From the IMG/VR virus record IMGVR_UViG_3300011114_000862, positions 1 to 58,600 of that record: a DNA stretch of 58,600 bases; one strand, written 5' to 3'. The DNA is from a virus. The translations under genes and the position numbers were made by a program. The notes under the pieces were generated by a model. It saw nothing but the letters and a program-made list of their open reading frames with translations, had not been told where the DNA came from and did no database searches. Positions within the stretch are counted from its first letter, which is position 1; the number at the start of each line of letters is the position of its first letter. Positions 4,025 through 49,901 of the stretch are shown piece by piece.

Positions 4025-4026
4025 TA

Positions 4027-5916
4027 ATGTCTCTCAATCAATTTACAAATTTAGATTTTAATAATCTAAAAACTCAACTTAAAGATTATTTAAGATCTAA
4101 TAGTAATTTCACTGATTTTGATTTTGAAGGTTCAAATTTCTCTGTGCTGGTTGATATATTAGCATATAATAGTTACATAAATTCATTTAATGCCAATATG
4201 GCAGTCAATGAATCTTTTTTAGATAGTGCAACTTTAAGAGAAAATGTAGTTTCATTAGTTAGGAATATTGGATATGTTCCTAGATCTAAACGATCTGCAG
4301 TTGCAAAAGTTTCTTTTACAGTTGATGTATCTACATTTGAATATAGACCTAAGACGATTACACTCAAATCTGGAGTTGTAGCATTAGGTTCAGTTCAAAA
4401 TGGAAATTATATATTTTCAATTCCCGATGATATTGTACAGAAAGTAGATAATGATGGTATTGCTTATTTTACAGATATTTCAATATATGAGGGATCACTA
4501 CTAACAAAGACTTTTGTAGTGGATAATACAAATCCTAGGCAGACATTTATACTTCCAAATCCAAGTATTGATACTACAACAATTAGAGTTTCGGTTACAG
4601 GAACATCTAAAGAAAAGTATGAATTATATCAAAATATATTTAAAGTAGATTCAAATTCAAAATTATTTTTAATTCAAGAAATTGAAGATGAAAAATATCA
4701 AATTCTTTTTGGTGATAATATTATAGGTAAAAAACCAATAAATGGAAGTTCAATATTAACTTCATATATTGTAACCAATGGTGCTTCTGCAAATGGTGCA
4801 TATAGATTCACTTTTTCAGGAATATTGAAAGATAATACTGACACAACCGTAACTAGTGGAATATCCATACTGCAGACATTATCTTCAGCAGCAAATGGAG
4901 ATGATATTGAATCCACAGAATCTGTTAAATATCTTGCACCTAGAGTATATTCATCACAATATAGAGCAGTAACTGCAAATGATTATAAAGGACTTATACC
5001 ATTCTTATTCTCAAATGTAGAGTCTGTTGTTGCATATGGAGGAGAGGAATTAAATCCTCCAGAATATGGAAAGGTATATATTGCAATTAAACCTAGACAA
5101 GGATATTTCATTTCAGAGATTACTAAAACAGATATTAAGAGAAAATTAAAAGATTACTCTATTGCAGGAATTAAACCTGAAATAGTTGATTTAAAATATC
5201 TATATGTAGAGTTAGATATTACTGCATATTATAATTCAAATCTAACATCATCTTCGGCAAATGTTATAACTAAGGTTCGCAATACTATAGACGCATATAG
5301 CAATTCAACTGATGTAAATAGTTTTGCAGGAAGATTTAAATATAGTAAAGTTTGTGGATTAATTGATAATTCAGATATATCAATCACATCAAACATAACA
5401 AAAGTTAAAATGAGAAGAAATCTAATACCAACTTTAAATAAAGTTGCAATATATGAATTATGTTTTGGAAATGAATTTCATGTATCTAAGAAAAATTCAA
5501 TCGATGGTAATGGATACAATATTAAGTCAAGTGGATTTACAATTGATGGAAATCTCAATACTCTGTATATGAGTGATGTACCAATAAATAGTACTACTGG
5601 AACAGTATTCTTTTTTAAACTTGAAGGTGGAATTCCAGTAACAGTAATTGCAAATGCAGGAACTGTTTATTATCCAAATGGTGAGATTATATTAAATGCA
5701 ATAACATTTACAAGTTCTGTAAGAGAAAATGGAATTGAAGTTCAGGCAATTCCTGAGTCAAATGATGTCATTGGAACTAAGGATACATACTTAGAAATAG
5801 ATAATTCAAATATTAATATAACTACTATTGAAGATATCATATCATCCGGAGAAAATCTAGCCGCAACTAGATATATCACAACATCAAGTTACACTAACGA
5901 AAATTATATAAGATAA
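4027..5916 (+). CDS. 6: Baseplate wedge protein gp6
   Basis: 629-residue homologue of T4 gp6 (660 aa), which forms the inner ring of the baseplate and binds gp25 and gp7. The N-terminal segment with NFSVLVDILAYNSYINSF and NESFLDSATLRENVVSL is the highly conserved baseplate J-like helical region. A central beta-rich part and YGKVYIAIKPRQGYFIS follow. The order gp25-gp6-gp7 is conserved in T4-like phages. Its stop is one base from the next ATG. Confidence 0.93.
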   Translation: MSLNQFTNLDFNNLKTQLKDYLRSNSNFTDFDFEGSNFSVLVDILAYNSYINSFNANMAVNESFLDSATLRENVVSLVRNIGYVPRSKRSAVAKVSFTVDVSTFEYRPKTITLKSGVVALGSVQNGNYIFSIPDDIVQKVDNDGIAYFTDISIYEGSLLTKTFVVDNTNPRQTFILPNPSIDTTTIRVSVTGTSKEKYELYQNIFKVDSNSKLFLIQEIEDEKYQILFGDNIIGKKPINGSSILTSYIVTNGASANGAYRFTFSGILKDNTDTTVTSGISILQTLSSAANGDDIESTESVKYLAPRVYSSQYRAVTANDYKGLIPFLFSNVESVVAYGGEELNPPEYGKVYIAIKPRQGYFISEITKTDIKRKLKDYSIAGIKPEIVDLKYLYVELDITAYYNSNLTSSSANVITKVRNTIDAYSNSTDVNSFAGRFKYSKVCGLIDNSDISITSNITKVKMRRNLIPTLNKVAIYELCFGNEFHVSKKNSIDGNGYNIKSSGFTIDGNLNTLYMSDVPINSTTGTVFFFKLEGGIPVTVIANAGTVYYPNGEIILNAITFTSSVRENGIEVQAIPESNDVIGTKDTYLEIDNSNINITTIEDIISSGENLAATRYITTSSYTNENYIR

Positions 5917-5917
5917 T

Positions 5918-8900
5918 ATGTCAGATATCCAAAAGGTAAAAATTTCAAATATTATTGAAAATCAGATACCAAGTTTTCTAAATGAAGATTCACCGTTGTT
6001 TAGAGAATTTCTAGAGCAATATTATATTTCATTGGAACATGAAACTGGCACATTTGATGTAATAACTAATCTTCCACAATATAAAAGTATTAGTAATTTT
6101 AATACTATAACTATTGGAGGGTCATTATTCATTAAAAGTACAAGTGCGACTTTAGATCCATCTACTCCAAATACTATAGTTGGAATTGATACATCTAAAC
6201 TTACACTGAATGATATTATAGAACCTATAGATTCTTACATACTTCCAAATACAGCTATATCTTCTATTGGGGATAATTCTATAGAAATTAGTAGGAATCA
6301 TTTAGTTTCTTCTGAAATTTCTACTATAGAGATTGGAGTAGTTACACAATACTGCAAATTAACTTCAAATGTTAGTGCTTTTGATACAGTTATAAATGTG
6401 AATACTACTGTAGGATTCCCCGATACCTATGGATTGCTTAAAATTGATGATGAAATAATTACCTATAAAGGAAAAACTGATACTTCTTTTACAGAATGTG
6501 TAAGAGGTTTTAGTGGAATATCAAATCTACAAAAAACATTATCTACAGAAGAACTTGAGTTCAACTCAACTTCTACCTCCGATCATTTACAAATTTCAAG
6601 TTCAACAAATCTTCCAAATCAAGTAATAAATTTAAATATAGAATTTTATCAAAAATTATTTGAAAAATTTAAATATCAATTTCTACCTGGATTTGAAAAT
6701 AGAGAATTTTATCCAGATTTAAATTTACAAAATATATTATCAAAAGCAAAAGACTTTTATATTTCAAAAGGAACTGATATTTCTTTTAAAATTTTATTCA
6801 ATATTCTTTTTGGTAAGCAAGTAACAGTAATAAAACCTCAAGATTATCTGTTTAGAACATCAGATAATTTATATTTCAAGACTAAAAATATTTTAGTCAA
6901 ACATATTGATGGAAATTTAGATTTATCTAAAATAAAAGGAAAAACTCTATATCAAGATATATCCACCACAGAAATTGCTAGTGGATCAATTTACAATATA
7001 GAAGTTAGACCTACAGATGATGGGCAGATTTATGAAATTTCATTAGATTACTCATCTACAATCTCTAATTTTAATGTAACTGGAACCACTTATATTTCAG
7101 AAAATGTCAGCACTAATTCAAATGTATTAACTGTAGATTCTACTGTTGGATTTTCTAAATCAGGAACAGTTTTAATTTATTCTGAGGATTTATCTTACAC
7201 AAAAACATTAACTTATACTGACAAAACTAATAATCAATTCTTAGGTGTATCTGGAATTGATATACCATTAAAGTATAATTATAAAGTTATATATAATGAT
7301 TTTGCATATTTGTATGATGATAATTCAGAAAAAGTAACATTCCAAATTATCACTGTAATTACTGATATTAATGTTTCTCCATCTTCAAATTTAAGAGTTG
7401 GTGATAAAGTATCACTTCTAGGAATTGGGAAAGATCTATCCGATATTAATGAATTCAATACTTGGATTTATAATATTCCTGTAACTCATAATATAAAAAA
7501 AGTTATTAAAATTGCACCAACAATCTGGGAAATTTCATTTTATGATGACATACAATTCTATTATGATGACAGTGTTATATTAACTAATCCAGATGATGTT
7601 AATGATACTGAAATAAAGTTGAATATATCTCCTAAAAATTTAAATACAATCTTAGTTTCCACTGGATTAGATATTTCCAGTAAAACATTGGTTAAAAAAG
7701 TTATCAGAAAGGGTTCAACTAATTATAATAAATTTTCAGAAATTAATTCATATACTGCAAATATTCAAAATGCGTATATTGATAATAGTTCGAATAATAT
7801 GTATGTAATGTCATCTGGAATTCCAGATTATGAAATACTAAGTCGTGAGAAATTAGTATATTTAACTACAGATGCATCTCCCACAGGACTAACTAATATA
7901 ATCAATACTGTTGATGAAAATGGAGTTGAATGTAGACATTATTTTTATAATGGTGAGCAAGTAAAATTCATTCCATCATCTAATTCTAAAATAGGTCTAT
8001 CTACCGGTACATATTACATTAAAATTATTGGAAGTTATCCAGACAGTAAGCAGATAAGTTTAACATATAGTCAATCACAACTATTTAATGAGAATTACAT
8101 AGATTTAATTTCTAGTACTGGAGTATCTTCTAGTGGATATATTGTAAAGAAAAATTATGAAAATAAAATATTAAAGCATCAGAAATTATTCAAAAAAATT
8201 AATTTAGTCAAAAATAATATAAACTATCAAAGTAAAACCGAAAGATCTATCAATAATAGAGAAGTTGGTATATTGGTTAATGGTATAGAATTATACTCTC
8301 CTACATTATATGATGAAAATATTTACTATGGAGCATTAGATTCAGTTTTTATATCAGATTCTGGTTCAAATTATGATGTAATCAACAAACCAAATGTAGA
8401 AATATTAGATTTAGATAAAAATTTAAATCCCATAGGATCTGGAGCAGATATTATTCTAAATGTATCTGGATCTATAGAACGAGTTGAAGTAACTACTCCC
8501 GGTTACAATTATGTTTTACCACCAGATATAACCTTAGTTGGAGGGAATGGATCTGGTGCAATATTAGAATCCAATTTAGTTTCGTCAAATGTAATTTCTG
8601 GATTTAGGGGTGATGCTGATGGCATTAATGTTAATGAAATAACTTTCATTGATAATCATAATTTCAATAATGGAGAAGAGGTAGTATATGATTCAAACTC
8701 AAATTCAAACATATCACCACTATCACATAATTCAAGATACTTTGTAGGTGTTATTTCGAATAAAGTAGTTCAATTATACAATAATAATAATGTTGGTATT
8801 AATACCATAAATTTTGTTGGATTTAGTTCTGGATTCCATTATTTCAAATCAGTTTTAAGTAGAAATACTGTTAGTGAAATTAAAGTTATATCTAAAGGTG

Positions 8901-11900
8901 TAGATTATGCAAATAAATCAGTAGTAGTTCCATCCATATTATCTTATAATAATGAAGATAATGGAATTAATACTTTTGATGATTATATTTTTGCAAAAAA
9001 TCATAATTTTAAAAGTGGAGATGATATTGTATATTCTACAACTGGAACTGCAATTGTTGGTTTAGCAACAACCACAACTTATATTTCAACAGTATTGGAC
9101 AATGACAGATTTAAGTTATCTGAAGTAGGAATAGGAATAACTTATAAATCTAATTATGAAAATAAAAAATATGTAAAGTTACAAACTCTAGGTACTGAAG
9201 AACATACCTTTGCATATCCACCTATCCAATTGTTAATCAATAATATCTCCAAATCTGGAACATATATTGAACCAGTTTTAAATCCAGTAGTATTAGGACA
9301 ACTTGATAGTGTTTTTATAAAAAATGTAGGAAGTAAGTATGGAACTCCAGATATTATAAATTTCCATAGACGACCTGATATTATCATATCTAATGTTAAA
9401 TCTGAATGTATATTGAAGCCTGTAATTTCAAATGGAGAAATTATCGATGTTCATATTCTAAATTCTGGAGTGGGGTATGACAGTACTGTAGATATTACAG
9501 TTATCGGAGATGGATTATTTGCAGATATTCGTGCAACTATAATATCTGGAAGAGTTGATTCCATTGATATTAAAAATGGTGGAGTTGGTTATATACAATC
9601 AACTACACAGTTACGTGTTTCCAACAGAGGAGTTGGTGGAAAATTAATTGCAAATGTTAAGAATTGGCAATTGAATCAAATAGAAAAAAATAAAGGATTT
9701 ATAAATTCAGATGATGATGGATACCTAATTCCAAATATAAATGAAGACTATGGATTGAAATATATTCATTTTTACTTACCGAAAGTACTTCGTAAAAAAA
9801 TAAATGATAATATTGATTTAAATGGAGTTGAAAATCCAACCAATGCATCACCTATAGTTGGATGGGCATATGATGGTTCCCCAATCTATGGTCCATATAT
9901 TAAAGAAAATGGCATTGTACGCAAAATTGAATCCAGTTACAATTTAATTCCTACATTAGTATCTACAGATTTGCGTCCAAATTTCTATAATGGATTTTTC
10001 ATTCAAGATTATCAATATTTTGAAAATAATGGAGATTTGGATAGAAATAATGGAAAATTTATTGTTAATTCAGATTTCCCAAATGGAACTTATGCCTATT
10101 TCTGTACTCTAGATACTAATACAAATGTTCCAAAATATCCATATATCGTAGGAAAATATTTTAAAAATGATGTAGAGTTAGATAACTATAACCCGATTAT
10201 AAATCAAGATGATAGTTTAAACGTAATAGATATTTTAACAAGAAATATTTCACCATATTATGCAAATTCTAATACTTCAAATTATAATCCAATTAAACCA
10301 ATCTATAAAAAGTATAGTCAAGAATTTACAGTTAAAGAAACATTAAAATCTGGAATTGATAATATATCAATTTATATTTCTGGAGATAATTATAAAGTAG
10401 GAGATACTTTAGAATTTGACCATTCAACCAGTGGGGGTCAAGATGCTTCAGCATCAATCTCTAGAATTTCTGGGGTGGGGATGTCTTCCTTTAATATTGG
10501 TATTACTACAATATCACCCATAAAATTCTCAAATTCTGGAAATAATATAACTGCAATATCAACTTCACCTCATAATTTACAAAATGGTAGAATAGTTAAT
10601 ATAACTGGAATATCATCGTTCAATTTTTCATATTTAGAAGGATTTAAATTTATTTTTGTCCCCTCAGCAAAAACTGGAATAACCTCACATATATTACCAC
10701 CAACACTTCCAGTTGGAATAGCAACATTTATACCAGTAACTTCTACAGTTGGATTTGTAGTTGGTGATTTTATAGGTATTACTACTTCAAATAATACTCA
10801 AGAAATTGCTCAAATAACCAATGTCTCTATACCAGAATCTAGATTATATGTAGAACGATTATCTAATATTCATAGTGGTATATGTACTGTAGGAGTTACT
10901 ACAATTACATTATTACCTAGAAGTTTTGTTTTTGCAGAACGAGTAACTTCTCCTATTAAAATTAATAAAGAATTCCCATTACATTTTGATCCAAATTACC
11001 ACATTGCATATGGAAATTCACCTAAAAATTACAATCTTCCAGTAACAAATCCAGTAGTAAATGTAAGTATTCCCCAACAAGCAATATACATCCCAAATCA
11101 CAATTTGAATACTGGAGATTCAATATTATATGGAATAGGTCCTGCTAAAGTTGGGATTGGATTATCTGCATCTGCAACATATGGAGGAACACCATTTAAT
11201 CTGACTGATAATCAATTAGTATATGCAGTAAAACTAGATAAAGATTTTCTAGGAATATCTACACAAGGACCAGTAGGAATTACTACGTTATTCTTTATTG
11301 ATAAACCCAATTATGGTTACCATAGTATAACTAAAGTATCACCAAATGTAGTTGGAGTTGTAGAAAATTATGCAATAAATGTAGGTACTACCAAATCGCA
11401 CGGATTGGAAACTGGTGATAAGGTTAGATTTAATCTCAATTTTAATGAAACTCAAAATATAAAATTTAAATATGATTCCATTAATAGGAAAATAACTTCA
11501 GATGAAACAAGTCTCAATTCTAGTCAGGTAAATGTAGGAGTAAATACTTATTCTACAATTTATATTCCAGAACATCCATTTAATGATGGAGATAAAATAG
11601 TATATAATGTTGGTATTGGATCAACTGTTGGAGGATTGATTAATAGTCAATCATATTATGTTTTGACTAATCAAATAGATTATATAAGGTTGTGTCAGTA
11701 TTACTCTGATGTGAAAGTAGGTACTTCTATAAGTTTCACCTCCCAAGGTACTAACGATCATACATTATCTAAAATAAATCCACAAATTAATTCGGTAGAT
11801 AATAATAATATTGAATTCGATTTATCTGATACGAGTCTAGTAGATTCCGAGTTGATAATTTATAAAGATATTAATTTTGAAAATGAGTTGGAAACTTATA

Positions 11901-14900
11901 AATTACAATCATCCAGTGCTCCTGCAGGAACAACTGGATCCACATTAACCATATTAATTGATGAAACTACACCTAAAACTTTATATTACAATCTAGTGAG
12001 TACTTCTCCAAGTTCTCTTAAAATTCAAATATCATCAGATATAGATGTAATCCATAGGAACCAAATAAATATTTCAAAGAGTAATTTAGTTGAAGACTTT
12101 CCAATAATATCAACTGGAACAACAGCATTTGAGATAAATTTACATAAAAAACCCAATTTCCATACATTAAGTATATCTGGATTATCTACTGTTAAGTATG
12201 ATACAGATTCACTTAATGTATTAGGACCAATCTCCGAATTTAAAATTTCAAATAGTGGTAAAAATTATTTTAAAGTGCCTAGAATTTCTAAAATTAATTC
12301 TAGACTGGGAACTGGATCTATACTTAGAGCAAAATCATCAACTATTGGAAAAATAAAAACTTTAGATATAACTAAAAATGGATATGATTACCCATCAGAT
12401 ATTACATTAAAACCTCAGTTCAATGTACCCATATTATGTGAAATAAATGACATTTTTAGAGTTAATAATATTGAAATTGTTACAGGTGGATCTGGATATA
12501 ATGTTGCCCCAATATTAAAAGTTATTGGTAATGATACCATCAAGTTATCTGCTAAACTTACAGGTGGGGTAGTATCTCAGGTAATTGTAGATCAAAATAC
12601 TAATGATTTAAACCAACCTTTAGAAATTGTAACTTTAAAAAATTCAAATGGATATGATATCGATTCTATTACTGTATCTGGGAATATAGTTACATTAGAA
12701 TTAATCAATTCAGATCCAAGATTATTCCCATTAAGTGGTACATTTCCATTTAATCTTGGAGATGAAATTTTTGTTGAGAATTGTAGAATTTCACCATTGT
12801 CAGTAACAACAGCAGGCGTTACTACATTATATGATAATTATAATTCTAAAGATTATGGGTATATATTCTATACCGTTATTGCAGTCGATTCAGTAAGTTG
12901 TACTGTATCTTACAGTATGTCTGGGGTAAAATCTGGACTCAATTTGGGAACTTATTCAAATGTAAGTGGATATGGAAATGTAATAAACAAAAAAAATATA
13001 GCACAATTTAAAATGAATATAATTGATGATCTCAATTATATTTCAAATGAGAAGGTAACTACTCCAACATTCTCTGCAAATGTTATGGAGAATGGATGGG
13101 ATAATGATACTAACCAACTGAGATTATATAATACTAAAGGTGAATTGGTAGTTGGGGATAATTTACTAGGTGAATTGTCTAGATTGAATGGAGTGATAGT
13201 TAATACCACTACATTTGATTTACATGGTTCTATTGGAAGCAGTACCAATAAAATTTCGTATCTAGATGACAATACGGGATTTTTAAACGATGATCGACAA
13301 GTTCTATCTGATAATGACTATTATCAGAAATTCTCATATTCACTACAAAGTTCAGTATCCTACACAGAATGGAGAGAATCTATACATTCATTAGTTCATC
13401 CTTCAGGGTTTAAGTCTTTCTCAAATCTAGAAATATTTGAGAAATCTCAATCTATGAGTCCAAAATTAAGTCAAAATACCAGAGGAATCTTGATTAATAT
13501 TGATAATTTATCATCTATGTACAATAGATATAATTTTTCTATGGTCACTGAAGATGAATTGCTACCAGATGGTTCCATAGAAAGAATAGTATTTCCAGAT
13601 GCAGTAAGTTTAAAACCATATATTCTAAACCAAACTAATAAAGTTATATCAATTGATGATATAAGTGATAATTTTAATGGAAATAATAATTTAATAGTTA
13701 TTGCAAATTTAATAGCATCTTTTGATTCTAATGATTTAAATATAATTGGAATTTCTACTATTGGATTACAAATAAATGATCATTTAGATTTTTCACCATA
13801 CTTATCTCCAACTGATACTTATATCACTAATATAGGAGTATCTAATGTTGGAATTAATATTCCACATAAAGTTAAAACTGGAATTCAAACTTCATCAGTT
13901 ATTGTTAGAAGAAAAATTAATAATAGTCAAACTGTTGGTATTTCGTCTTTCAAATTAACAAATAATGGGACTTCACTATTCTATCATGAATTTGATTCAA
14001 CTGGAATTTCATCAGTAGTAAATTTAATTGATAACAAATTTACAATTACAAATCACAATTTCCAAACTGGTCAAAAAATCATATATGATGTTGGAACTGG
14101 AACTTCTATAGGAATTGAAACTTCATCTACATTACTTTTTGGTGATGTTTTAATGCAAGTTGGAGTAAGTACGGGTACTGCAATTTATGAAAATGGGTAT
14201 AATTCAGCAATAAGTTCCCAAATTACTGGAATATCTACAAATACCATCGGATCTCCAACATTAAGTTATGGATTAATTTCACCATACTTAGATGGAATTT
14301 CATCTGGAATAGGAACTGGTGCTAAATTTAGTGTTATTATTATATACAATTCAGGAAATCCAATATCAACATCAATAGTTTTGAGAGAAGGTGGATCTGG
14401 GTATTCAATTGGAGATACAGTTTCAATTGCAGGTACTTATTTGGGAGGATCATCTCCTACAAATGATCTATCATTTGTAGTTACTATTGTAGCAGGAACA
14501 CAAATTATTAGTGGAGTAAATTCATCTTATACTAATATTCCAGGTTATAATTTAATAGGAAGTGGAAGTAATGCTACATTCAATGTCTCTAGAAATTCTG
14601 TTGGTATTGCTACAACAATTGCAGTAAATGTTGGGGGTAAGTATTATACATTATCTGATGTAATTGGAATTTCTGGAACTTATATTGGTGGAACTAATCC
14701 CACAGATAATCTATATTTCTCACCAACAGATTTAGGTTCTGACATATTACCACCAACTTTATATGTCAATAAAATTGATTCAAATAATTTTAGAGTTTTG
14801 GCAAATGCTGGTGGATCTGAGCTCAATTTAACTTCATATGGAATAGGAACTCATTCATTTGTAGAAGAAATACCAAATACAAATACCACAATATTAATTG

Positions 14901-17900
14901 ATAATATTATTCAGAGTCCAATTTATAATCGCAATCTTACATATACACTTTCAAGTAATGTTGGAATTGGAAGTACTGTAATTTATTTAAATTCAGGAAT
15001 ATCATCATTATCATCTATAGATTTACTAAAGATAGACTCTGAGATATTTAAAATTGAATCTTTAGGTATAGGTGCATCCAATGCAGTAGGGGTCTATAGA
15101 GCATCCTTAGGTACGGTAGAAACCTCACATACCACATCAACTACCGTCAATGTACTTAGGGGGGATTACAATGTCATCAAGGACATTATACACTTCAATT
15201 CACCACCATATGGTGGAATATCATATGGTGAGATATCAAAATTATCTGGAAATGTAGTCACATCTCAACCTCTATATGTAAAATCATCTTTCCAAGGTAG
15301 AGTGTATTCTAGAAGTTTCTCATATAACACTACACTAAACGATAAAAATATTATTCTTGATGATATTTCTACTCAATTTACAGGTGAAAATACTATAGTT
15401 GGAGTATATACTGGAACATTAGATTCAACCATATTAAAATCTATAACTGGAATTATTACAACAGGAATTAATATTGGAGATGTAATAACTGAAAAAGCAT
15501 CTTACATATTACCTAGTACATATATAACTTCCATTGGAATTGGTAGTATTACTATAAATAAATCACATTTAATTTCATCGGGAATCTCAACAACAGATTT
15601 GGATATTACTAGATCTACATATAAATTAACTACTAGTAGTTCCAATGTAATCGGAATTTATACCAATACAAATTCCTCAGTAGATATTAACAATAATCCA
15701 GTAGTATTAATTAACAATATATACCAAATTCCTGGTAAAGATTATATAATTGACACTCCAAATCAAAATACAATTAAATTTATTAGTGGTACTCCAAATT
15801 CAGGTAAAATAGTAAGAGTTGGTATTCAAACTGGAGTTGGATATCAATTGTTGGTTGGTGCAGCAGCAACAGTATCAGTATCCATTGCTGGAACTATTTC
15901 ACAGATATCCCTAAATGGATTTGGTTCTGGATATAGGATTGCTCCAAATATAACCTTAAATTCTTCTGTTGGTAGTGGTGCAAGTTTCACATCTACAATT
16001 GGTTTAGGTGGAACTATAACATCTATAGGAATTATCAATCCTGGTATAGGATATACAGATTCACCTCTCCCAAGTGTAATTATTGATCCACCATTACCAT
16101 ATAACAGACTCAATTTAGACTATATTTCTGGAATTTCTACTGGAAGTGGAACTGGAGCAAAAGTTTCAGTGCAAATCAGTTCAAATTCTGAGATTTCACA
16201 ATTTAATATAGATTCAAATGGAATTGGATATAAAGTTGGAGATTTATTGGATGTAGTTGGTATTGCAACTGATCCAACATCAACATCATTTACACCATTT
16301 AGAATTAATGTCCTAGAGGTATTAAATGATAAATTTAGTGCATATTATCCAGGACAATTTGTACTTTTTGATGATATTTCCTCACTTTTCAATGGAGTTA
16401 GGAAGAAATTCCGTATATTTGAAACTCAAAATGGAGTTACTAGTGTAGTTTCACTCAAATCAGATGTGGGATCTGACTTAGATTTACAGAATAATTTATT
16501 TATTTTCATTAATGATGTATTACAAACTCCAAATGAAGCATATACATTTAATACTTCTAGAATTACATTTACAGAGGCACCCAAATCAAATTCCAAATGT
16601 AGTATTCTATACTATAGGGGATCAAGTTTAGATGTTAATGAGGTTATTCCTCCTAGTACTATAAAAGAAGGTGACGAAGTTCAAATTGATGAAAATATTA
16701 ATGATTTATACGATAGATCTCAATTTGATAGAACTGTTAAGCAAATTATATCCTCAGATAGTTTAGATACTTTTAATTATACTGGATTTGGTATAGATGC
16801 AGATCCAACAAAATATAGACCATTACATTGGAAAAAACAGACTTATGATAAAATTATCAATGGTGTATTATATTCCAAATCTAGACCAGATTTACATTCT
16901 AGACCTACACCAATATCAACAATAATAAAAGATATTATTGAAACTGATGATGAGATTTATGTTGATAATGCATTCCCACTATTTACCAATATCGATAATA
17001 TATCAGAAGAAAATAATGATGTCGTAATATCGGAAGATATTGATAAAACTCCTGCTTCTGCAATAATAACAATCAGTCCAACATCAACTTCAATATCAAG
17101 TATATCCATATTAAACTCAGGTTCGGGATATATAAATACTCCCTCAATTTCAATTTCTTCTAGTAAAATTTCAACAAAGGATCCAATTTATAATTGGATT
17201 AGTATCTCCGGCATTTCAACATATCAAAATGTGAAATCATTATCATATAATACTCAATTAGTTTCAGTTGGAACTAGTTGTTTCGTTGCAGTTAGTGCAG
17301 ATGGTACATATTGGATTCCAAAACTTACTCCATATGCAACTTCTATTGATTTTAATGATGTAACCCATGATGGATTAGGTAATTTTATAATTTGTGGAAC
17401 TTCCGCAAATATTGTTAGAAATTATGGAACTTCAAATATATACACTTGGTATAAATTTGATCTAAAATCATCAACATTAGATCCACTTGGAAATAAAGTT
17501 CTAGGTATTAGTACTTATTCTGGCAATTTCAATGGAATAACATATTTCAAATTAAATAAAAGTTTAATTGCTGTCGGGTCCAGTGGAGGTCTATTCTCAT
17601 CTGTTGGGGTAGGGTTAACATACTTTACAGAAACCTATAATCCATTGGGGACATCTATAACATTAAATTCAGTAACTAATAATACTACCACTATTGTTGC
17701 AGTTGGAAATAGTGGTTCAATAATATATTCAACAAATTCTGAAAACTGGACTGAAGTATTATCAGTTCCAACAACTAATAATTTAAATAAAGTTATTTGG
17801 GATGGTAATAGATTTATTGCTGTTGGTGATAGTGGTACAATTATCAGTTCCAATGATGGAATTTCAGGATGGTCTAATATTACGAGTGGATTAGTAGTTA

Positions 17901-18775
17901 ATATTAATGGTATTAGATATTATAATAATTTATATATTGCTCTTATCAATTCTTCTGATATATTATATTCTTCAGATTTAATCAATTGGACTTACAGAAT
18001 TACAAATCAAACAAACAATATAAATGATTATATATTTATAAATGATGTCTCAATAGGTGTAGGAAATTCCGGTACATTAATGTATGCTACTCCAATATTT
18101 AATAGAGCAACTGGAATTGCATCTGTATCTTCAGGTATAGTTACTTCAATAACAGTTACAAATGCTGGGTTTGGATATTCTAGTTCAAATCCACCATCAA
18201 TTATTATATCTTCGGAACCTCCAAAAGTTGAAAAATTATTCTCAATAAAAGCAATTGGAGATTTTGGAAATATAACTAAGATTTCAGTTGGGGGAACAAC
18301 CTTAGATTTTACTCTAAAATCTGAAACTTATGATAATTCCACTTTAGGTATCGGATATTCATCATTAAATATTTTTGGAATTCAAAATAGTCAACTATCA
18401 GTTGGAGATTATTTCGTAATTCAAAATAGTAATTCAGTTTGCAGTCATGCACTTACTTGCATCAACAAATTTGACAATAGTGTAGTTGGAACTGCAACTT
18501 CATTTATAGATGGAGTTTATATTGTAGGTGATGTAACTCCAGTAGTTTCTGGAATAATTACCGTTACCTGCTATTTCCAGAGACAACCTGGGGGTGGAAA
18601 TATTAATGTTAATGTCGGTTCTAATAGTTATTGTGGAACTTATTCCTGGGGTAAAATATATGATTTTGAAGATAGATCAAGAAAAACACCAGTTAGTTTT
18701 AGTATAAGTTCCAATGATAGTTTGGTCGGTTTGACAACTTCACCAAAATTATACCGAACTAAACAATTGATATAA
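5918..18775 (+). CDS. 7: Giant gp7-like baseplate wedge / tail structural protein, 4285 aa
   Basis: A 12.9-kb intact ORF starting MSDIQKVKISNIIENQIPSF, the gp7-like N-terminus of cyanophages, directly after gp6. T4 gp7 is 1032 aa, so this is about four times longer. The extra length is mostly modular beta-rich sequence. It includes an IDDEIITYKG...CVRG module near residues 145-215; at least seven H-x-F/L-x-x-G-[DQE] repeats (about residues 911, 1026, 1550, 1725, 1826, 1884, 2710); a YHYH-domain-like block at about 1300-1410 (VGWAYDGSPIYGPY, FPNGTYAYF); many GSGY-type repeats; and a beta-propeller-like region at about 3760-4055 (FIAVGDSGTIISS, ILYSSDLINWT). No frameshift is visible. It probably connects the wedge to peripheral adhesin domains; gp7 identity rests on position and the N-terminus. 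Confidence 0.8.
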   Translation: MSDIQKVKISNIIENQIPSFLNEDSPLFREFLEQYYISLEHETGTFDVITNLPQYKSISNFNTITIGGSLFIKSTSATLDPSTPNTIVGIDTSKLTLNDIIEPIDSYILPNTAISSIGDNSIEISRNHLVSSEISTIEIGVVTQYCKLTSNVSAFDTVINVNTTVGFPDTYGLLKIDDEIITYKGKTDTSFTECVRGFSGISNLQKTLSTEELEFNSTSTSDHLQISSSTNLPNQVINLNIEFYQKLFEKFKYQFLPGFENREFYPDLNLQNILSKAKDFYISKGTDISFKILFNILFGKQVTVIKPQDYLFRTSDNLYFKTKNILVKHIDGNLDLSKIKGKTLYQDISTTEIASGSIYNIEVRPTDDGQIYEISLDYSSTISNFNVTGTTYISENVSTNSNVLTVDSTVGFSKSGTVLIYSEDLSYTKTLTYTDKTNNQFLGVSGIDIPLKYNYKVIYNDFAYLYDDNSEKVTFQIITVITDINVSPSSNLRVGDKVSLLGIGKDLSDINEFNTWIYNIPVTHNIKKVIKIAPTIWEISFYDDIQFYYDDSVILTNPDDVNDTEIKLNISPKNLNTILVSTGLDISSKTLVKKVIRKGSTNYNKFSEINSYTANIQNAYIDNSSNNMYVMSSGIPDYEILSREKLVYLTTDASPTGLTNIINTVDENGVECRHYFYNGEQVKFIPSSNSKIGLSTGTYYIKIIGSYPDSKQISLTYSQSQLFNENYIDLISSTGVSSSGYIVKKNYENKILKHQKLFKKINLVKNNINYQSKTERSINNREVGILVNGIELYSPTLYDENIYYGALDSVFISDSGSNYDVINKPNVEILDLDKNLNPIGSGADIILNVSGSIERVEVTTPGYNYVLPPDITLVGGNGSGAILESNLVSSNVISGFRGDADGINVNEITFIDNHNFNNGEEVVYDSNSNSNISPLSHNSRYFVGVISNKVVQLYNNNNVGINTINFVGFSSGFHYFKSVLSRNTVSEIKVISKGVDYANKSVVVPSILSYNNEDNGINTFDDYIFAKNHNFKSGDDIVYSTTGTAIVGLATTTTYISTVLDNDRFKLSEVGIGITYKSNYENKKYVKLQTLGTEEHTFAYPPIQLLINNISKSGTYIEPVLNPVVLGQLDSVFIKNVGSKYGTPDIINFHRRPDIIISNVKSECILKPVISNGEIIDVHILNSGVGYDSTVDITVIGDGLFADIRATIISGRVDSIDIKNGGVGYIQSTTQLRVSNRGVGGKLIANVKNWQLNQIEKNKGFINSDDDGYLIPNINEDYGLKYIHFYLPKVLRKKINDNIDLNGVENPTNASPIVGWAYDGSPIYGPYIKENGIVRKIESSYNLIPTLVSTDLRPNFYNGFFIQDYQYFENNGDLDRNNGKFIVNSDFPNGTYAYFCTLDTNTNVPKYPYIVGKYFKNDVELDNYNPIINQDDSLNVIDILTRNISPYYANSNTSNYNPIKPIYKKYSQEFTVKETLKSGIDNISIYISGDNYKVGDTLEFDHSTSGGQDASASISRISGVGMSSFNIGITTISPIKFSNSGNNITAISTSPHNLQNGRIVNITGISSFNFSYLEGFKFIFVPSAKTGITSHILPPTLPVGIATFIPVTSTVGFVVGDFIGITTSNNTQEIAQITNVSIPESRLYVERLSNIHSGICTVGVTTITLLPRSFVFAERVTSPIKINKEFPLHFDPNYHIAYGNSPKNYNLPVTNPVVNVSIPQQAIYIPNHNLNTGDSILYGIGPAKVGIGLSASATYGGTPFNLTDNQLVYAVKLDKDFLGISTQGPVGITTLFFIDKPNYGYHSITKVSPNVVGVVENYAINVGTTKSHGLETGDKVRFNLNFNETQNIKFKYDSINRKITSDETSLNSSQVNVGVNTYSTIYIPEHPFNDGDKIVYNVGIGSTVGGLINSQSYYVLTNQIDYIRLCQYYSDVKVGTSISFTSQGTNDHTLSKINPQINSVDNNNIEFDLSDTSLVDSELIIYKDINFENELETYKLQSSSAPAGTTGSTLTILIDETTPKTLYYNLVSTSPSSLKIQISSDIDVIHRNQINISKSNLVEDFPIISTGTTAFEINLHKKPNFHTLSISGLSTVKYDTDSLNVLGPISEFKISNSGKNYFKVPRISKINSRLGTGSILRAKSSTIGKIKTLDITKNGYDYPSDITLKPQFNVPILCEINDIFRVNNIEIVTGGSGYNVAPILKVIGNDTIKLSAKLTGGVVSQVIVDQNTNDLNQPLEIVTLKNSNGYDIDSITVSGNIVTLELINSDPRLFPLSGTFPFNLGDEIFVENCRISPLSVTTAGVTTLYDNYNSKDYGYIFYTVIAVDSVSCTVSYSMSGVKSGLNLGTYSNVSGYGNVINKKNIAQFKMNIIDDLNYISNEKVTTPTFSANVMENGWDNDTNQLRLYNTKGELVVGDNLLGELSRLNGVIVNTTTFDLHGSIGSSTNKISYLDDNTGFLNDDRQVLSDNDYYQKFSYSLQSSVSYTEWRESIHSLVHPSGFKSFSNLEIFEKSQSMSPKLSQNTRGILINIDNLSSMYNRYNFSMVTEDELLPDGSIERIVFPDAVSLKPYILNQTNKVISIDDISDNFNGNNNLIVIANLIASFDSNDLNIIGISTIGLQINDHLDFSPYLSPTDTYITNIGVSNVGINIPHKVKTGIQTSSVIVRRKINNSQTVGISSFKLTNNGTSLFYHEFDSTGISSVVNLIDNKFTITNHNFQTGQKIIYDVGTGTSIGIETSSTLLFGDVLMQVGVSTGTAIYENGYNSAISSQITGISTNTIGSPTLSYGLISPYLDGISSGIGTGAKFSVIIIYNSGNPISTSIVLREGGSGYSIGDTVSIAGTYLGGSSPTNDLSFVVTIVAGTQIISGVNSSYTNIPGYNLIGSGSNATFNVSRNSVGIATTIAVNVGGKYYTLSDVIGISGTYIGGTNPTDNLYFSPTDLGSDILPPTLYVNKIDSNNFRVLANAGGSELNLTSYGIGTHSFVEEIPNTNTTILIDNIIQSPIYNRNLTYTLSSNVGIGSTVIYLNSGISSLSSIDLLKIDSEIFKIESLGIGASNAVGVYRASLGTVETSHTTSTTVNVLRGDYNVIKDIIHFNSPPYGGISYGEISKLSGNVVTSQPLYVKSSFQGRVYSRSFSYNTTLNDKNIILDDISTQFTGENTIVGVYTGTLDSTILKSITGIITTGINIGDVITEKASYILPSTYITSIGIGSITINKSHLISSGISTTDLDITRSTYKLTTSSSNVIGIYTNTNSSVDINNNPVVLINNIYQIPGKDYIIDTPNQNTIKFISGTPNSGKIVRVGIQTGVGYQLLVGAAATVSVSIAGTISQISLNGFGSGYRIAPNITLNSSVGSGASFTSTIGLGGTITSIGIINPGIGYTDSPLPSVIIDPPLPYNRLNLDYISGISTGSGTGAKVSVQISSNSEISQFNIDSNGIGYKVGDLLDVVGIATDPTSTSFTPFRINVLEVLNDKFSAYYPGQFVLFDDISSLFNGVRKKFRIFETQNGVTSVVSLKSDVGSDLDLQNNLFIFINDVLQTPNEAYTFNTSRITFTEAPKSNSKCSILYYRGSSLDVNEVIPPSTIKEGDEVQIDENINDLYDRSQFDRTVKQIISSDSLDTFNYTGFGIDADPTKYRPLHWKKQTYDKIINGVLYSKSRPDLHSRPTPISTIIKDIIETDDEIYVDNAFPLFTNIDNISEENNDVVISEDIDKTPASAIITISPTSTSISSISILNSGSGYINTPSISISSSKISTKDPIYNWISISGISTYQNVKSLSYNTQLVSVGTSCFVAVSADGTYWIPKLTPYATSIDFNDVTHDGLGNFIICGTSANIVRNYGTSNIYTWYKFDLKSSTLDPLGNKVLGISTYSGNFNGITYFKLNKSLIAVGSSGGLFSSVGVGLTYFTETYNPLGTSITLNSVTNNTTTIVAVGNSGSIIYSTNSENWTEVLSVPTTNNLNKVIWDGNRFIAVGDSGTIISSNDGISGWSNITSGLVVNINGIRYYNNLYIALINSSDILYSSDLINWTYRITNQTNNINDYIFINDVSIGVGNSGTLMYATPIFNRATGIASVSSGIVTSITVTNAGFGYSSSNPPSIIISSEPPKVEKLFSIKAIGDFGNITKISVGGTTLDFTLKSETYDNSTLGIGYSSLNIFGIQNSQLSVGDYFVIQNSNSVCSHALTCINKFDNSVVGTATSFIDGVYIVGDVTPVVSGIITVTCYFQRQPGGGNINVNVGSNSYCGTYSWGKIYDFEDRSRKTPVSFSISSNDSLVGLTTSPKLYRTKQLI

Positions 18776-32058: not shown

Positions 32059-32218
32059 ATTGAGAAATCTCAGTAAGATTTTTGAATATGAGAGGTTATC
32101 TAGAGAACTTGATGAATGTGAAAATATAAGTTCATTGAGACAGGTTGCAAAATCATATATTAAATTACACCTAAGTACTTTAGAAATAATTACAGAATTA
32201 AAAATTCCGATAGAATAA
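32039..32218 (+). CDS. Small conserved protein upstream of gp17, 59 aa
   Basis: 59-residue helical protein (MNPEDIELRNLSKIFEYERLSRELDECENI...LRQVAKSYIKLHLSTLEII). The ATG at 32039 is preferred to the upstream TTG at 32024 because GGAG at 32029-32032 lies 6 bases before it and the family pattern begins MNPEDI. It ends in a TAATG overlap with gp17. A gene of this kind regularly precedes gp17 in cyanophages, as I recall. Tight coupling suggests a packaging accessory role; unproven. Confidence 0.72.
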   Translation: MNPEDIELRNLSKIFEYERLSRELDECENISSLRQVAKSYIKLHLSTLEIITELKIPIE

Positions 32219-34920
32219 TGGCTGCAGATCAATATCTAGGAAATCCTCATCTTAAAAGAGCTAACACTAAAATAGAGTTTAGTGCGGATCATATTCAAGA
32301 ATTCATTAAATGTAAAAATGATCCGGTATATTTTTGTAAAAATTATGTAAAAATTGTAAGTTTAGATGATGGTGTAGTTCCTTTCAATATGCGGAAGTTT
32401 CAAGATAAACTTATTAAGAGATTTCATAAGCATCGTTTCAATATCTGCAAAATGCCTAGGCAGTGTGGAAAGGCATTATCTTTAGATACTCCTATTCCAA
32501 CTCCAAGTGGTTGGACAACTATGGGGGAAGTAAAGGTAGGTGACGAAATCCTATCTATAAAAGGAACTCCAACAATCGTCACTTTTAAGACAGATGTGAT
32601 GTATGACCACGATTGCTATAAAATATACTTTGATAATGGAGAAGAAATAATAGCAGATGCTGAGCATTTATGGGAAGTAAATAGTTCTTATTGGAGAAAT
32701 GGAAAGAAAGTAGTAACAACACAAGATATAGCAAAAGTTTATGAATCTAAAAATAAAAATAAGAGAGATAAGGAAGTAAAAGGTGCTTACTTTATAGATA
32801 TAAGTCTACCTCTAAATGTAGAACAAGATATAGAATTAAATATAGATCCATATCTTTTAGGGGTATGGTTGGGAGATGGGCATTCTAGTGATGGTAGAAT
32901 TATTGCTCATAAAGATGATTTTGAATATTATAAGACAAAAATAGAGATTGAGTATGAAAGAACTGATAATAACTGTATCAGATTTAAGATTTACAACTTA
33001 AAGAATAAGTTAAAAGATAGTAATCTATTAAAAAATAAACATATACCCCAAGAATATTTAAGAGCATCTTATAATCAAAGATTAGAACTCCTTCGTGGTC
33101 TTATGGATACTGGTGGAAGTGTTAAAAAGGGCACTAAATCATTTGAGTTTTATCAAAAAAACTATGAGTTAATATTACAGGTTGTTGAACTATTATCCAC
33201 ATTAGGAATAAAGTCAAAGGTACGACATAAGAAAATAAATGATTGTTATTATTATACTATTTCATTTACATCTACAGAAGTAATATTTAATCTTCCTAGA
33301 AAGATAACCTCAACAAAAAATAATAACACATCTAGACCTCAAGAAAAAAGACATTATATACAAAATATAGAAAATGTAGAAAGTGTTCCAGTAGCTTGCA
33401 TACAAGTCAATAGTGAAGATCACTTATTCTTATGTGGTAGAACATTTATCCCAACCCACAATACAACTACAGTTACTTCATATCTATTACATTATATAAT
33501 ATTTAATGATAATGTTAATATTGCTATATTGGCAAATAAAGCACAAACTGCAAAAGATATTTTAGGTAAACTTCAACTTGCCTATGAGAATTTACCCAAA
33601 TGGATGCAGCATGGGGTAAAGATATGGAATAAGGCATCACTAGAACTTGATAATGGTTCTAAAATTCTTGCTGCATCAACTTCAACCTCTGCAGTTCGAG
33701 GTGGTGCATATAATATTATTGTATTAGATGAATTTGCATTCATTCCAAATCAAATAGCAGAAGATTTTTTCAGTTCGGTATATCCAACCATTACATCTGG
33801 TCAAAATACTAAAGTTATTATAATTTCAACCCCAAAGGGTATGAATATGTTTTATAAACTTTGGACTGATGCAGAACGAGGTAAAAATGAATATGTACCA
33901 ACTGAAGTCCATTGGTCTGAAGTTCCAGGACGAGATCAAAAGTGGAAAGAACAGACTATTGCAAATACTTCTAAGGAACAATTTCAACAAGAATTTGAAT
34001 GTGATTTTCTTGGTTCTAGTGATACTCTAGTCAGTGCATCAAAATTAAAATGTTTAATATATGATGATCCAATAAAAAGAAGCAATGGTCTTGATGTATA
34101 TGTAAATCCAAAATCAGATCACAATTATCTTATGACTGTAGATGTATCAAGAGGTACGGAAAAGGATTATCATGCGTTTATATTATATGATATAACAAAT
34201 ATACCATATACAATCGCAGCAAAGTATAGGAATAATGAATTGACGCCTATGTTATATCCAGAGATAATATATCAAATAGCAGTAGCATATAATAATTCAT
34301 ATGTTTTAGTTGAAGTTAATGATATTGGTGAACAAATAGCAAAAGAATTACACTTCGATTTAGAATATGATAATTTATTAATGTGTTCTATGAGAGGTAG
34401 GGCAGGACAACTTGTTGGACAACAATTTTCTGGGAAAAAATCTCAACTTGGAATAAAAATGTCCAAACAAGTAAAACGAATAGGATGTTCAAATCTTAAA
34501 ACTATCATAGAGGATGATAAATTACTAATAAGGGATTATGAAATAATTAGTGAATTAACTACATTCATCTCTAAAAATGGATCGTTTGAAGCTGAGCAAG
34601 GATGTAATGATGACTTAGCAATGTGTTTAGTTATATTTTCATGGCTGATAGTTCAAGATTATTTTAAAGATATGACGAACAATGATGTTCGTAAACGAAT
34701 TTATGAAGAACAAAAAGATCAAATTGATCAAGATATGGCTCCATTTGGATTTATTTTGAATGGTATGGATGATGAAGAACAGGAAACTGTAGATAAAAAT
34801 ACCGGAGATAGGTGGTTATCTATTGATGCTAAAGAGCAGGATGGATTACTTAATTCTGAAAAGTGGAATACTGATGAATATGGAGATGTATCCACATTAT
34901 GGGAATATAGTAATTATTGA
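32218..34920 (+). CDS. 17: Terminase large subunit gp17, intein-containing
   Basis: 900-residue precursor; removal of a 330-residue intein (residues 86-415) leaves 570 aa, in line with gp17 (T4: 610). gp17 is the packaging ATPase and headful nuclease at the portal. Exteins: N-terminal YFCKNYVKIVSLDDG, the Walker A formed only after splicing (RQCGK + TTTVTSY), Walker B IIVLDEFAFIP, then IISTPKGMNMFY (motif III type). The nuclease domain has catalytic-type acidic residues in MTVDVSRGTEKDYHA and VEVNDIGE. The unspliced precursor cannot be an active ATPase because the P-loop is split. The start overlaps the previous stop. Confidence 0.95.
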   Translation: MAADQYLGNPHLKRANTKIEFSADHIQEFIKCKNDPVYFCKNYVKIVSLDDGVVPFNMRKFQDKLIKRFHKHRFNICKMPRQCGKALSLDTPIPTPSGWTTMGEVKVGDEILSIKGTPTIVTFKTDVMYDHDCYKIYFDNGEEIIADAEHLWEVNSSYWRNGKKVVTTQDIAKVYESKNKNKRDKEVKGAYFIDISLPLNVEQDIELNIDPYLLGVWLGDGHSSDGRIIAHKDDFEYYKTKIEIEYERTDNNCIRFKIYNLKNKLKDSNLLKNKHIPQEYLRASYNQRLELLRGLMDTGGSVKKGTKSFEFYQKNYELILQVVELLSTLGIKSKVRHKKINDCYYYTISFTSTEVIFNLPRKITSTKNNNTSRPQEKRHYIQNIENVESVPVACIQVNSEDHLFLCGRTFIPTHNTTTVTSYLLHYIIFNDNVNIAILANKAQTAKDILGKLQLAYENLPKWMQHGVKIWNKASLELDNGSKILAASTSTSAVRGGAYNIIVLDEFAFIPNQIAEDFFSSVYPTITSGQNTKVIIISTPKGMNMFYKLWTDAERGKNEYVPTEVHWSEVPGRDQKWKEQTIANTSKEQFQQEFECDFLGSSDTLVSASKLKCLIYDDPIKRSNGLDVYVNPKSDHNYLMTVDVSRGTEKDYHAFILYDITNIPYTIAAKYRNNELTPMLYPEIIYQIAVAYNNSYVLVEVNDIGEQIAKELHFDLEYDNLLMCSMRGRAGQLVGQQFSGKKSQLGIKMSKQVKRIGCSNLKTIIEDDKLLIRDYEIISELTTFISKNGSFEAEQGCNDDLAMCLVIFSWLIVQDYFKDMTNNDVRKRIYEEQKDQIDQDMAPFGFILNGMDDEEQETVDKNTGDRWLSIDAKEQDGLLNSEKWNTDEYGDVSTLWEYSNY
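32473..33462 (+). mobile_element. Class 3-type intein with LAGLIDADG domain in gp17
   Basis: 330-residue intein inserted in the P-loop between GK and T. The first residue is Ala (ALSLDTPIPTPSGW), not Cys or Ser. The Trp-Cys-Thr triplet that defines class 3 inteins is present: Trp67 in DAEHLWEV (block B), Cys309 in VACIQV (block F) and Thr328 in the terminal PTHN. The C-terminal Asn330 is followed by Thr as +1 residue. The homing endonuclease has LLGVWLGDG (Asp135 intact) and LRGLMDTGG, where the second catalytic Asp is Gly214. Splicing therefore looks competent while DNA cleavage is probably impaired. Confidence 0.92.
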
Positions 34921-48239: not shown

Positions 48240-48241
48240 TT

Positions 48242-48437
48242 ATAAATCTTACCCTTCGGGTAAGTCCTACGGATTATCTTAAATTAAGATATTATACCAT
48301 AATAAGACGGCAACCAACCCAATGTTCCTACAGATTATCTAAGTTCTTTATTACTAAAGAAGTTTCTCAAACTCCACAGAAATATTTTAGTGAGGTTTAG
48401 GTAAATTGTCAAGAGTATAAATACTCAACTTTAAAAA
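48242..48437 (+). other. Structured intergenic region before gp55
   Basis: About 200 bases with three dyads: CTTACCC/GGGTAAG (48248-48264) with a 3-base loop, ATCTTAA/TTAAGAT near 48277, and TTCTTTA/TAAAGAA (48344-48361) with a TTAC loop. None has a strong U-tract. The region also holds the palindrome GAGTATAAATACTC at 48414-48427. No ORF is visible. It is the largest gap in the replication block and may carry the regulation of gp55. Confidence 0.5.
48417..48424 (+). promoter_or_regulatory. Late promoter candidate within a palindrome (TATAAATA)
   Basis: Perfect TATAAATA inside GAGTATAAATACTC (48414-48427), 65-72 bases before gp55. If real, the late sigma factor would feed its own late transcription. 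Confidence 0.4.
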
Positions 48438-48466
48438 TTGACTATAGGTGTTTGTAAGACTAGTAT
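48438..48466 (+). promoter_or_regulatory. Sigma70-like promoter for gp55
   Basis: TTGACT at 48438-48443, 17-base spacer, TAGTAT at 48461-48466 (4 of 6 to consensus), 22 bases before the gp55 start. A host-type early promoter is expected for the sigma factor gene. Confidence 0.5.
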
Positions 48467-48488
48467 TAATCAAAACTAAACATATAAA

Positions 48489-49901
48489 ATGAACAAAAAA
48501 CAAAAGAATATCCATTATGTAAATAATAAGGAATTCCATGAAGCATTAGTTGTCTATAAGAAAAAGATTGAAGATGCCAAAATAAAAGGACTCAATAAAC
48601 CAAAGATACCAAATTATCTTGGAGATTGTTTTTTAAAAATTGCTACTCACCTTTCATATCGTCCAAATTTTGTAAATTATATGTATCGTGACGACATGAT
48701 CAGTGATGGGGTAGAAAATTGTTTACATCGTTCAACTATTGTTCCAACAATTGAATATGGACCAGTTGAAATACAAACTCTTGTAGGGAAGGAAGCTACA
48801 GTTTGTTGTAAAGATGGGATGTGGAGGAAAGCCATAGGGAAGTCCTATGGAAAGCAAATGCTTTATGAGTATGGATTTGCTTCTTTTAATATTCCAGCAG
48901 ATGAAGTATTTTTAAAGGTAATTGCGACCGAAAATCATAGATGGTATGTAAAGAGCCGAAGAAATAATAAAAGAACTTTAGATAGACTTAATGTTGTAGT
49001 TGATGATTTAAGAATTGGAGATTGTTTAGAACATTCTCCCTCTGAAATTAATTTAGATAGAACCGGAGTTCTTCACGGATTATTATATGGAGATGGTTCA
49101 GGCCATAAGGATACAGTTTATGGAAATCCAGTTGCTATAACTCAAGGGTCAAAATACGCAAGAATAAGAGTATGTAAGCAAGATTTAGTTCAACAAGAAA
49201 TAATTGAATTACTTGAAGAGTTTGGATATCATCCAACATATCCAAAATCAGCTAATGGAGACCCTTGTTATTATCTTGGAAAACTCCCATATGTTAAGGA
49301 TTTACCATTCACAACAGACCCAGAATATATTGCTGGGTTTATTTACGGGTGGTGGTTAGCCGATGGAAGTAAAACCACTCTATCCAAGAGACTTCAAATT
49401 AGCACTTCAAATGAAAGTGCCGCACAGTGGTTGTTGGAATATTCGTGCTATGCTGGGTATCTTGTTATCGCACATAGAATAAAAGAAAGGTGTGCGGGGG
49501 ATGGTTCATATGAAAATGGAAAACCATTACACGTAATTACTTTAGCTAAACCTGAAGAATATGAAGCAAAGGTTAGATATATTAAAGAATATGGAGAAGA
49601 TGAAGTTTTTTGTTTAGAGGAACCTGAAACTAATAGTTTTGTTTTAGGAAATGGACTTCTGACGGGAAATTGTTTAACTTACATTCATAATTTTGACACT
49701 GAAAGAACTAATCCTTTTGCATATTTTACTCAAATTGTATATTATGCGTTTCTACGTCGTATAAGTAGAGAAAAGAAGCAAGTAGAGATTAAAGAAAAAC
49801 TTTTGGAAAGAAGTTCATTTGAAGAAGTTTTTACAGCAGATGAAAATTATAATGTTTCTGAATATAATGCTATTAAGGATGCTATACATTTAAAATATTA
49901 A
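48489..49901 (+). CDS. 55: Late sigma factor gp55, intein-containing
   Basis: 470-residue precursor; without the 317-residue intein (residues 78-394) the product is 153 aa, near the size of cyanophage gp55 (T4: 185). gp55 directs host RNA polymerase to TATAAATA late promoters together with gp33 and the gp45 clamp. N-extein: FHEALVVYKKKIEDAKIKGL, YLGDCFLKIATHLSYRPNFVNYMYRDDMISDGVEN. C-extein: CLTYIHNFDTERTNPFAYFTQIVYYAFLRRISREKKQ. Joined they give the sigma region 2-like DGVENC...YIHNFD...NPFAYFTQIVYYAFLRRI of T4 gp55. No ribosome site is evident before the ATG. Interruption of the sigma core means the precursor should be inactive. Confidence 0.93.
   Translation: MNKKQKNIHYVNNKEFHEALVVYKKKIEDAKIKGLNKPKIPNYLGDCFLKIATHLSYRPNFVNYMYRDDMISDGVENCLHRSTIVPTIEYGPVEIQTLVGKEATVCCKDGMWRKAIGKSYGKQMLYEYGFASFNIPADEVFLKVIATENHRWYVKSRRNNKRTLDRLNVVVDDLRIGDCLEHSPSEINLDRTGVLHGLLYGDGSGHKDTVYGNPVAITQGSKYARIRVCKQDLVQQEIIELLEEFGYHPTYPKSANGDPCYYLGKLPYVKDLPFTTDPEYIAGFIYGWWLADGSKTTLSKRLQISTSNESAAQWLLEYSCYAGYLVIAHRIKERCAGDGSYENGKPLHVITLAKPEEYEAKVRYIKEYGEDEVFCLEEPETNSFVLGNGLLTGNCLTYIHNFDTERTNPFAYFTQIVYYAFLRRISREKKQVEIKEKLLERSSFEEVFTADENYNVSEYNAIKDAIHLKY
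48720..49670 (+). mobile_element. Cys1 intein with LAGLIDADG domain in gp55
   Basis: 317-residue intein starting Cys (CLHRSTIVPTIEYGPVEIQTL; block A) with block B IATENHRWYV (Thr-x-x-His), two LAGLIDADG motifs (GLLYGDGS with Asp125 and IAGFIYGWWLADGS with Asp215), block F EVFCLEEPETNSFVL and block G NGLLTGN followed by Cys. The penultimate residue is Gly, not the usual His, a variant I recall from phage and ribonucleotide reductase inteins. Both endonuclease acidic residues are kept, so homing may be active. Insertion is between VEN and CLTYIHNF of the sigma factor. Confidence 0.93.

Follow-up and report, generated by a model that had tools for sequence, protein, structure and literature searches.

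The gene of the T4-type late sigma factor gp55 is interrupted by a 317-residue insert whose identity as an intein is strongly supported and far beyond chance. The gene lies in the window, by which we mean the whole 58.6-kb virus record analysed here (30% G+C), and the best explanation of the data taken as a whole is, with high confidence, a bifunctional homing intein in gp55, predicted both to splice and to act as an endonuclease. The window's major head protein shares 75% identity with its counterpart in Prochlorococcus phage P-SSM2, which at the sequence level places the window among the marine-type, T4-like phages of the cyanophage group. By eye, a helicase-like ORF lies upstream of gp55, and the ORFs downstream of it resemble a phosphoesterase-type nuclease subunit and a gp46-like ATPase; PHROG places a clamp loader nearby as well. 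Such a gene order around gp55 is familiar from T4-like phages. The features of the interrupted gene are as follows.

48489-49901, + strand: gp55 precursor ORF, 470 aa
48489-48719, + strand: N-extein, 77 aa, sigma-region-2-like domain ending ...DDMISDGVEN (PHROG_234 match; 7d7c_F alignment)
48720-49670, + strand: intein, 317 aa, precursor residues 78-394, Hint splicing domain with embedded LAGLIDADG endonuclease (profiles, fold, alignment A2)
48720-48722, + strand: Cys1 of the intein (TGT), candidate first nucleophile in a class 1 reading (invariant in A2)
48927-48944, + strand: block B, TENHRW, with Thr70 (B:7), His73 (B:10) and Trp75 (B:12) (all three invariant in A2)
49068-49106, + strand: LAGLIDADG motif 1 (block C), VLHGLLYGDGSGH, Asp125 (G124-D125-G126 invariant in A2)
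49326-49367, + strand: LAGLIDADG motif 2 (block E), YIAGFIYGWWLADG, Asp215 (Pfam LAGLIDADG_3 above cut-off; D215 invariant)
49605-49655, + strand: block F, VFCLEEPETNSFVLGNG, Cys298 (F:4), alternative first nucleophile in a class 3 reading (C298 invariant in A2)
49656-49670, + strand: block G, LLTGN, with Thr315 (G:5), Gly316 (G:6) and Asn317, predicted to cyclise (NCBIfam intein_Cterm; T315-G316-N317 invariant in A2)
49671-49901, + strand: C-extein, 76 aa plus stop, from the +1 Cys, CLTYIHNF..., promoter-contact part and C-terminal tail (phrog_12791; 7d7c_F alignment)

The AAT codon of Asn317 ends at 49670 and the TGT codon of the +1 Cys occupies 49671-49673, while the two LAGLIDADG motifs read LHGLLYGDG (D125) and IAGFIYGWWLADG (D215), both aspartates being invariant among 13 aligned members. 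Coordinates and anatomy are exactly those of the initial annotation, which had described a 317-residue intein at 48720-49670 with Cys1, a Thr-x-x-His block B, two LAGLIDADG motifs and an Asn-Cys junction. Its list of motifs, right about Cys1 and Thr-x-x-His, had passed over Cys298 at F:4, the Trp-Cys-Thr triad and the replacement of the penultimate His by Gly316.

The insert has the properties of an intein, namely an in-frame position within a conserved protein, flanks that rejoin cleanly, the residues of blocks A, B, F and G, and a Hint fold, and it has those of a homing endonuclease, with two LAGLIDADG motifs bearing the catalytic Asp and an I-DmoI/PI-SceI-like fold. By itself it passes the cut-offs of NCBIfam intein_Cterm (20.3 vs 15.6 bits) and Pfam LAGLIDADG_3 (27.7 vs 22.5 bits). 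The host gene is identified by PHROG_234, ‘late sigma transcription factor’, which matches the whole ORF (E=3e-55) in two stretches, the best at 3-80, and by phrog_12791, which spans the C-flank (388-450, E=4.5e-14); the proposal that a T4-type late sigma factor is the interrupted protein is thus borne out by profiles on both the flanks and the insert. When the flanks are joined, as had been suggested, gp55 is restored: the resulting 153-aa protein matches T4 gp55 in PDB 7d7c (E=9e-17), aligns gap-free over the junction with an intein-free relative (L014, 82% identical), and has D69, D73 and E76 at the positions of T4 E70, D74 and E77. The spliced junction (residues 77 + 395) reads ...DGVENCLTYIHNF.... 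Intein-bearing relatives, interrupted at exactly this place, exist alongside intein-free ones, and the insert resembles Hint and LAGLIDADG domains in both profile and fold comparisons. We also noticed that AAATTGTTTA is shared at both junctions, and treated it as incidental, since other members share just the N-C codons and a few bases.

To the profile evidence the predicted fold can be added. An AlphaFold model of the intein with alignment A2 (13 inteins) as input reached a pLDDT of 85.3 and a pTM of 0.86, and in Foldseek its top match was PI-SceI (E=1.9e-12), followed by TliVMA, PI-PfuI, the DnaB/DnaE mini-inteins and the free-standing I-DmoI. Since the model matches all of these, the Hint and LAGLIDADG modules are both complete as modeled. 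PI-SceI, the yeast VMA intein, is the best fold match, likewise joining a Hint domain to a pseudo-symmetric LAGLIDADG domain, but is just 11-14% identical to the gp55 intein; it is also longer, with an extra DNA-recognition region. A PDB search with the single intein sequence returned chance matches only, whereas the A2 profile search did find inteins. The AlphaFold model of the whole 470-aa precursor (pLDDT 39) was too poor for use.

The position of the intein has a predictable consequence for gp55. In T4, helix H3 of gp55 touches the clamp helices of RNA polymerase via E70, D74 and E77, and F86, H95, Y97 and T99, further along, line promoter DNA pockets (PMC7892883). In the 7d7c alignment the intein falls between the equivalents of T4 gp55 A78 and S79, one residue past E77, leaving the polymerase-contact residues on one side and most of the promoter-contact residues on the other. 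Because it breaks the RNA-polymerase-binding helix, the 470-aa precursor should, judging from the T4 structure, be inactive as a sigma factor until spliced. The consensus of the empty site, D-G-[IV]-E-N|C, is present in nearly all intein-free relatives, with N-C in 71 of 72 readable loci.

Thirteen other IMG/VR contigs carry this intein at the identical codon; they give nine further distinct sequences and include two very different gp55s. These are L003-L012, plus L153, L170 and L150 with more distant gp55s; L153 and L170 are 40-57% identical to the window in the exteins and 47-58% in the intein. An assembly error or chimera might be suspected, since the window is an IMG/VR-type record of an uncultured virus, but with the frame open and the arrangement repeated in this many contigs such an origin is exceedingly improbable. 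In L150 (reverse strand) an in-frame TAA lies inside the intein, upstream of block F, while the frame of its relative L170 is open; the L150 allele is broken, or its sequence contains an error. Intein-free gp55 alleles, which the initial annotation had proposed to look for in related phages, were found in L014-L022 and in the 72 readable loci. None of the 522 INPHARED records matching the precursor carries the intein, as none covers 80% of the query; among the 120 matches listed the spans equal the length of the uninterrupted gene, and a different intein is possible in unlisted records. Judged by match length, the best 80 of at least 595 gp55 loci in IMG/VR carry no intein, in a ranking that favours uninterrupted genes. 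The gp55 intein is therefore rare and sporadic. No description of an intein in gp55 was found in the literature searched, a search with InBase and subscription literature outside it, which together with the 522 records agrees with the earlier remark that no such intein was known. As far as could be searched, gp55 is a new insertion site, occupied by new members of a known intein type, and it adds a gene of the transcription programme to the known phage intein hosts.

Comparison of inteins with their exteins indicates that the element moves. L005 and L010 have exteins 99% identical and inteins 74% identical, and L003 and L005 have exteins 65% identical and inteins 85% identical. In AU tests on protein each alignment rejects the tree of the other partner, the intein alignment at p=0.002 and the extein alignment at p=1.6e-5, and on DNA the corresponding values are p=0.0016 and p=1e-6, for seven sequences and a short extein of 179 columns. 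Nei-Gojobori dN/dS of the intein is ~0.04-0.22, the values being approximate with synonymous sites near saturation. The incongruent trees, the purifying selection and the invariant LAGLIDADG Asp indicate, at the level of sequence comparison, a mobile, functional homing element moving between gp55 alleles. Were the intein instead decayed, splicing would be lost, and gp55 would be dead or act as a fusion, or another sigma factor would be used. The His-to-Gly change at the penultimate position, which could slow Asn cyclisation, and the TAA of L150 would fit such decay. Against it, catalytic residues are invariant down to 33% identity, purifying selection on the intein is strong and the exteins are conserved, polymerase-contact acidic residues included. 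Gly at the penultimate position is moreover known in phage inteins, and in the Bethlehem RDF intein changing it to His made precursor accumulate (PMC5050341). We therefore regard decay as very unlikely.

For a functional homing intein, we propose that one 470-aa precursor is translated, from which the Hint domain would excise itself and ligate residues 77 and 395 to give the 153-aa gp55. The embedded LAGLIDADG endonuclease would cleave empty gp55 genes of co-infecting phages at the D-G-[IV]-E-N|C codons, and repair after cleavage would copy the intein into the empty allele. The conserved site, the existence of empty alleles and the horizontal movement fit such cleavage, though indirectly. The intein's persistence would follow from an essential site that tolerates little mutation; gp55 is essential in T4.

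The initial annotation had gone further, proposing that splicing gates the switch to late transcription. The part of this claim that stands is that splicing, given the site, must come before gp55 function; that its timing or conditions matter is supported by no evidence, and horizontal movement, sporadic presence and endonuclease conservation are what a mobile element predicts, so that the proposal is half supported. A regulated gate would mean that the intein has been domesticated as a conditional splicing switch, responding to redox, temperature or infection stage, that times late transcription. There is a precedent in the class 3 M. smegmatis DnaBi1, in which oxidation of the block F Cys, the equivalent of Cys298, halts splicing reversibly (PMC6195587). 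A member of the family also sits in the gp44 clamp loader, and in T4 late transcription is driven by the sliding clamp (PMC7892883). On these grounds one could imagine conditional splicing, for example redox control via Cys298, that times or blocks the late switch in a probably photosynthetic host, with the gp44 intein on the same pathway, although we see only a slim chance of this. A gate is unlikely because the intein is absent from the 522 phage records and the best 80 IMG/VR loci described above, the closest phages do without it, it moves horizontally with its endonuclease motifs kept, and the same family occupies unrelated metabolic genes. On the evidence, the intein looks like a mobile parasite of the gp55 gene and not like a purpose-built switch. 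Cys30, considered as a redox-trap partner, is shared throughout the gp55 group of the window yet missing from the L153 and NrdJ inteins, and was rejected as too weak a candidate. Short, structurally understood and with intein-free alleles in relatives, gp55 would allow a clean test of whether an intein delays a viral stage switch.

The family signature comprises Cys1, Thr B:7, His B:10, Trp B:12, Cys F:4, Thr G:5, Gly G:6, Asn G:7 (with one exception, Gln in P318) and a +1 Cys. The gp55 intein accordingly has all the class 1 residues (Cys1, Thr B:7, His B:10) together with the class 3 triad (Trp B:12, Cys F:4, Thr G:5). Tori and Perler, in 2011, are said to have tested some Cys1/Ser1 inteins that have this triad. 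Most likely, splicing would start at Cys1 as in class 1, and Cys298 would occupy the place that Asp usually takes in block F. This is favoured because Cys1 and Thr B:7 are invariant (Cys1 in A2 and in 24/24 family inteins outside the class 3 panel), the A2 profile matches DnaE (class 1) inteins only in the PDB, and the canonical class 3 TerL/DnaB inteins, the window's own TerL intein included, form a separate clade (100/100), in a tree where class 1 is thinly sampled, by one phage intein, and where the class 3 comparison set consists of TerL/DnaB relatives.

In a class 3 mechanism, Cys298 would attack the N-terminal junction and Cys1 would be dispensable, which we consider possible but doubtful. 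Trp-Cys-Thr, the signature of class 3, is invariant across the family, and Cys1/Ser1 is not required in such inteins (PMC5222942). However, Cys1 and Thr B:7, which are invariant as well, are generally absent from class 3 inteins (PMC6195587, PMC3196547), so the gp55 intein fails the general class 3 rule of no Cys1/Ser1, and the +1 residue, usually Ser/Thr in class 3 (PMC5222942), is Cys. Cys is the second most common residue at F:4 across inteins overall (PMC4031507), and some class 1 inteins have it there too (PMC3196547). Nor is Thr G:5 diagnostic of class 3, because the SPbeta NrdE intein, with Cys1 and the same Thr-Gly-Asn end, has Asp at F:4. Class 3 inteins (mycobacterial DnaB-1; TerL) resemble the gp55 intein in Trp B:12, Cys F:4 and Thr G:5, and many have LAGLIDADG, but their first residue is Ala/Gly, their block B usually has Asp and their C-terminal junction reads Thr-His-Asn|Thr, whereas the gp55 intein has Cys1, Thr in block B, and Thr-Gly-Asn|Cys. 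A firm class 3 label from Trp-Cys-Thr was rejected given Cys1 and Thr B:7, the position outside the class 3 clade and the DnaE matches. The hybrid class 1/class 3 signature of the family would be useful for tracing the origin of class 3 splicing.

Relatives 37-48% identical to the gp55 intein were found in class II ribonucleotide reductase (RNR), the gp44 clamp loader and the DNA primase zinc finger, and the extein junction is N|C in all family members (gp55, gp44, NrdJ, NrdD, primase). The phage or prophage NrdJ inteins (L013, which is the same as L043, a Magnetospirillum molischianum contig; L016, L044, L154, L166 and L167) are 44-47% identical over the whole intein and share the two-motif endonuclease, the N|C insertion, Cys1, TxxHxW, Cys F:4 and Thr-Gly-Asn|Cys, but their host protein differs, with exteins unrelated to sigma factors. 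The gp44 (L132, L140, L141, L151) and primase (L033, L034, L036) inteins have the same catalytic signature and N|C in different exteins, and a description of these was likewise not found in the literature searched. Less similar members occupy NrdJ at a second position (L037, Thermobifida phage P318) or lie in the NrdD of the cultured Klebsiella phage FBKp34 and Vibrio phage V6Aob, the NrdD inteins having the same catalytic signature at ~24-26% identity in an anaerobic RNR extein. The gp55 inteins group together (SH-aLRT/UFBoot 94.7/74 for whole inteins, 95.4/94 for splicing domains) within an RNR-rich set, and this nesting suggests a jump from RNR-type hosts to gp55. Introns and inteins are known to cluster in phage RNR genes (PMC3653736). 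We propose that the gp55 intein descends from a family with its centre in phage class II RNR, from which members would have moved to gp55, gp44 and primase. The inteins of L044, L132, L033, L153 and L170 mostly fall below the cut-offs of the Pfam and NCBIfam intein models, and because standard profiles detect the family so poorly, automatic annotation would likely often miss its inserts.

The gp44 intein is inserted at FASN|CSFIFTCN (L132:499-2337, L140, L141, L151); the window's own gp44 is empty, with N-C at the corresponding place. The primase relative (L033, L034 and L036, near 4001-4885) sits in the zinc-binding motif, at YCHN|C. A second intein of the window, 330 aa long (32473-33462, + strand), lies in the TerL gp17 ORF (32218-34920), within Walker A (QCGK|TTT). 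It has the canonical class 3 features Ala1, DAEHLW, the block F Cys and THN|T, is 68% identical to that of Synechococcus phage B23 and is of a known kind, similar inteins matching 574 phage records. A single ORF of 4285 aa (5918-18775, + strand) contains a YHYH domain (PF14240) and, below threshold, matches a baseplate wedge. By eye only, the intergenic stretch upstream of gp55 (48240-48488) seems to contain a hairpin (ACCCTTCGGGT), along with repeats of a CCTAC(G/A)GATTATCT motif.
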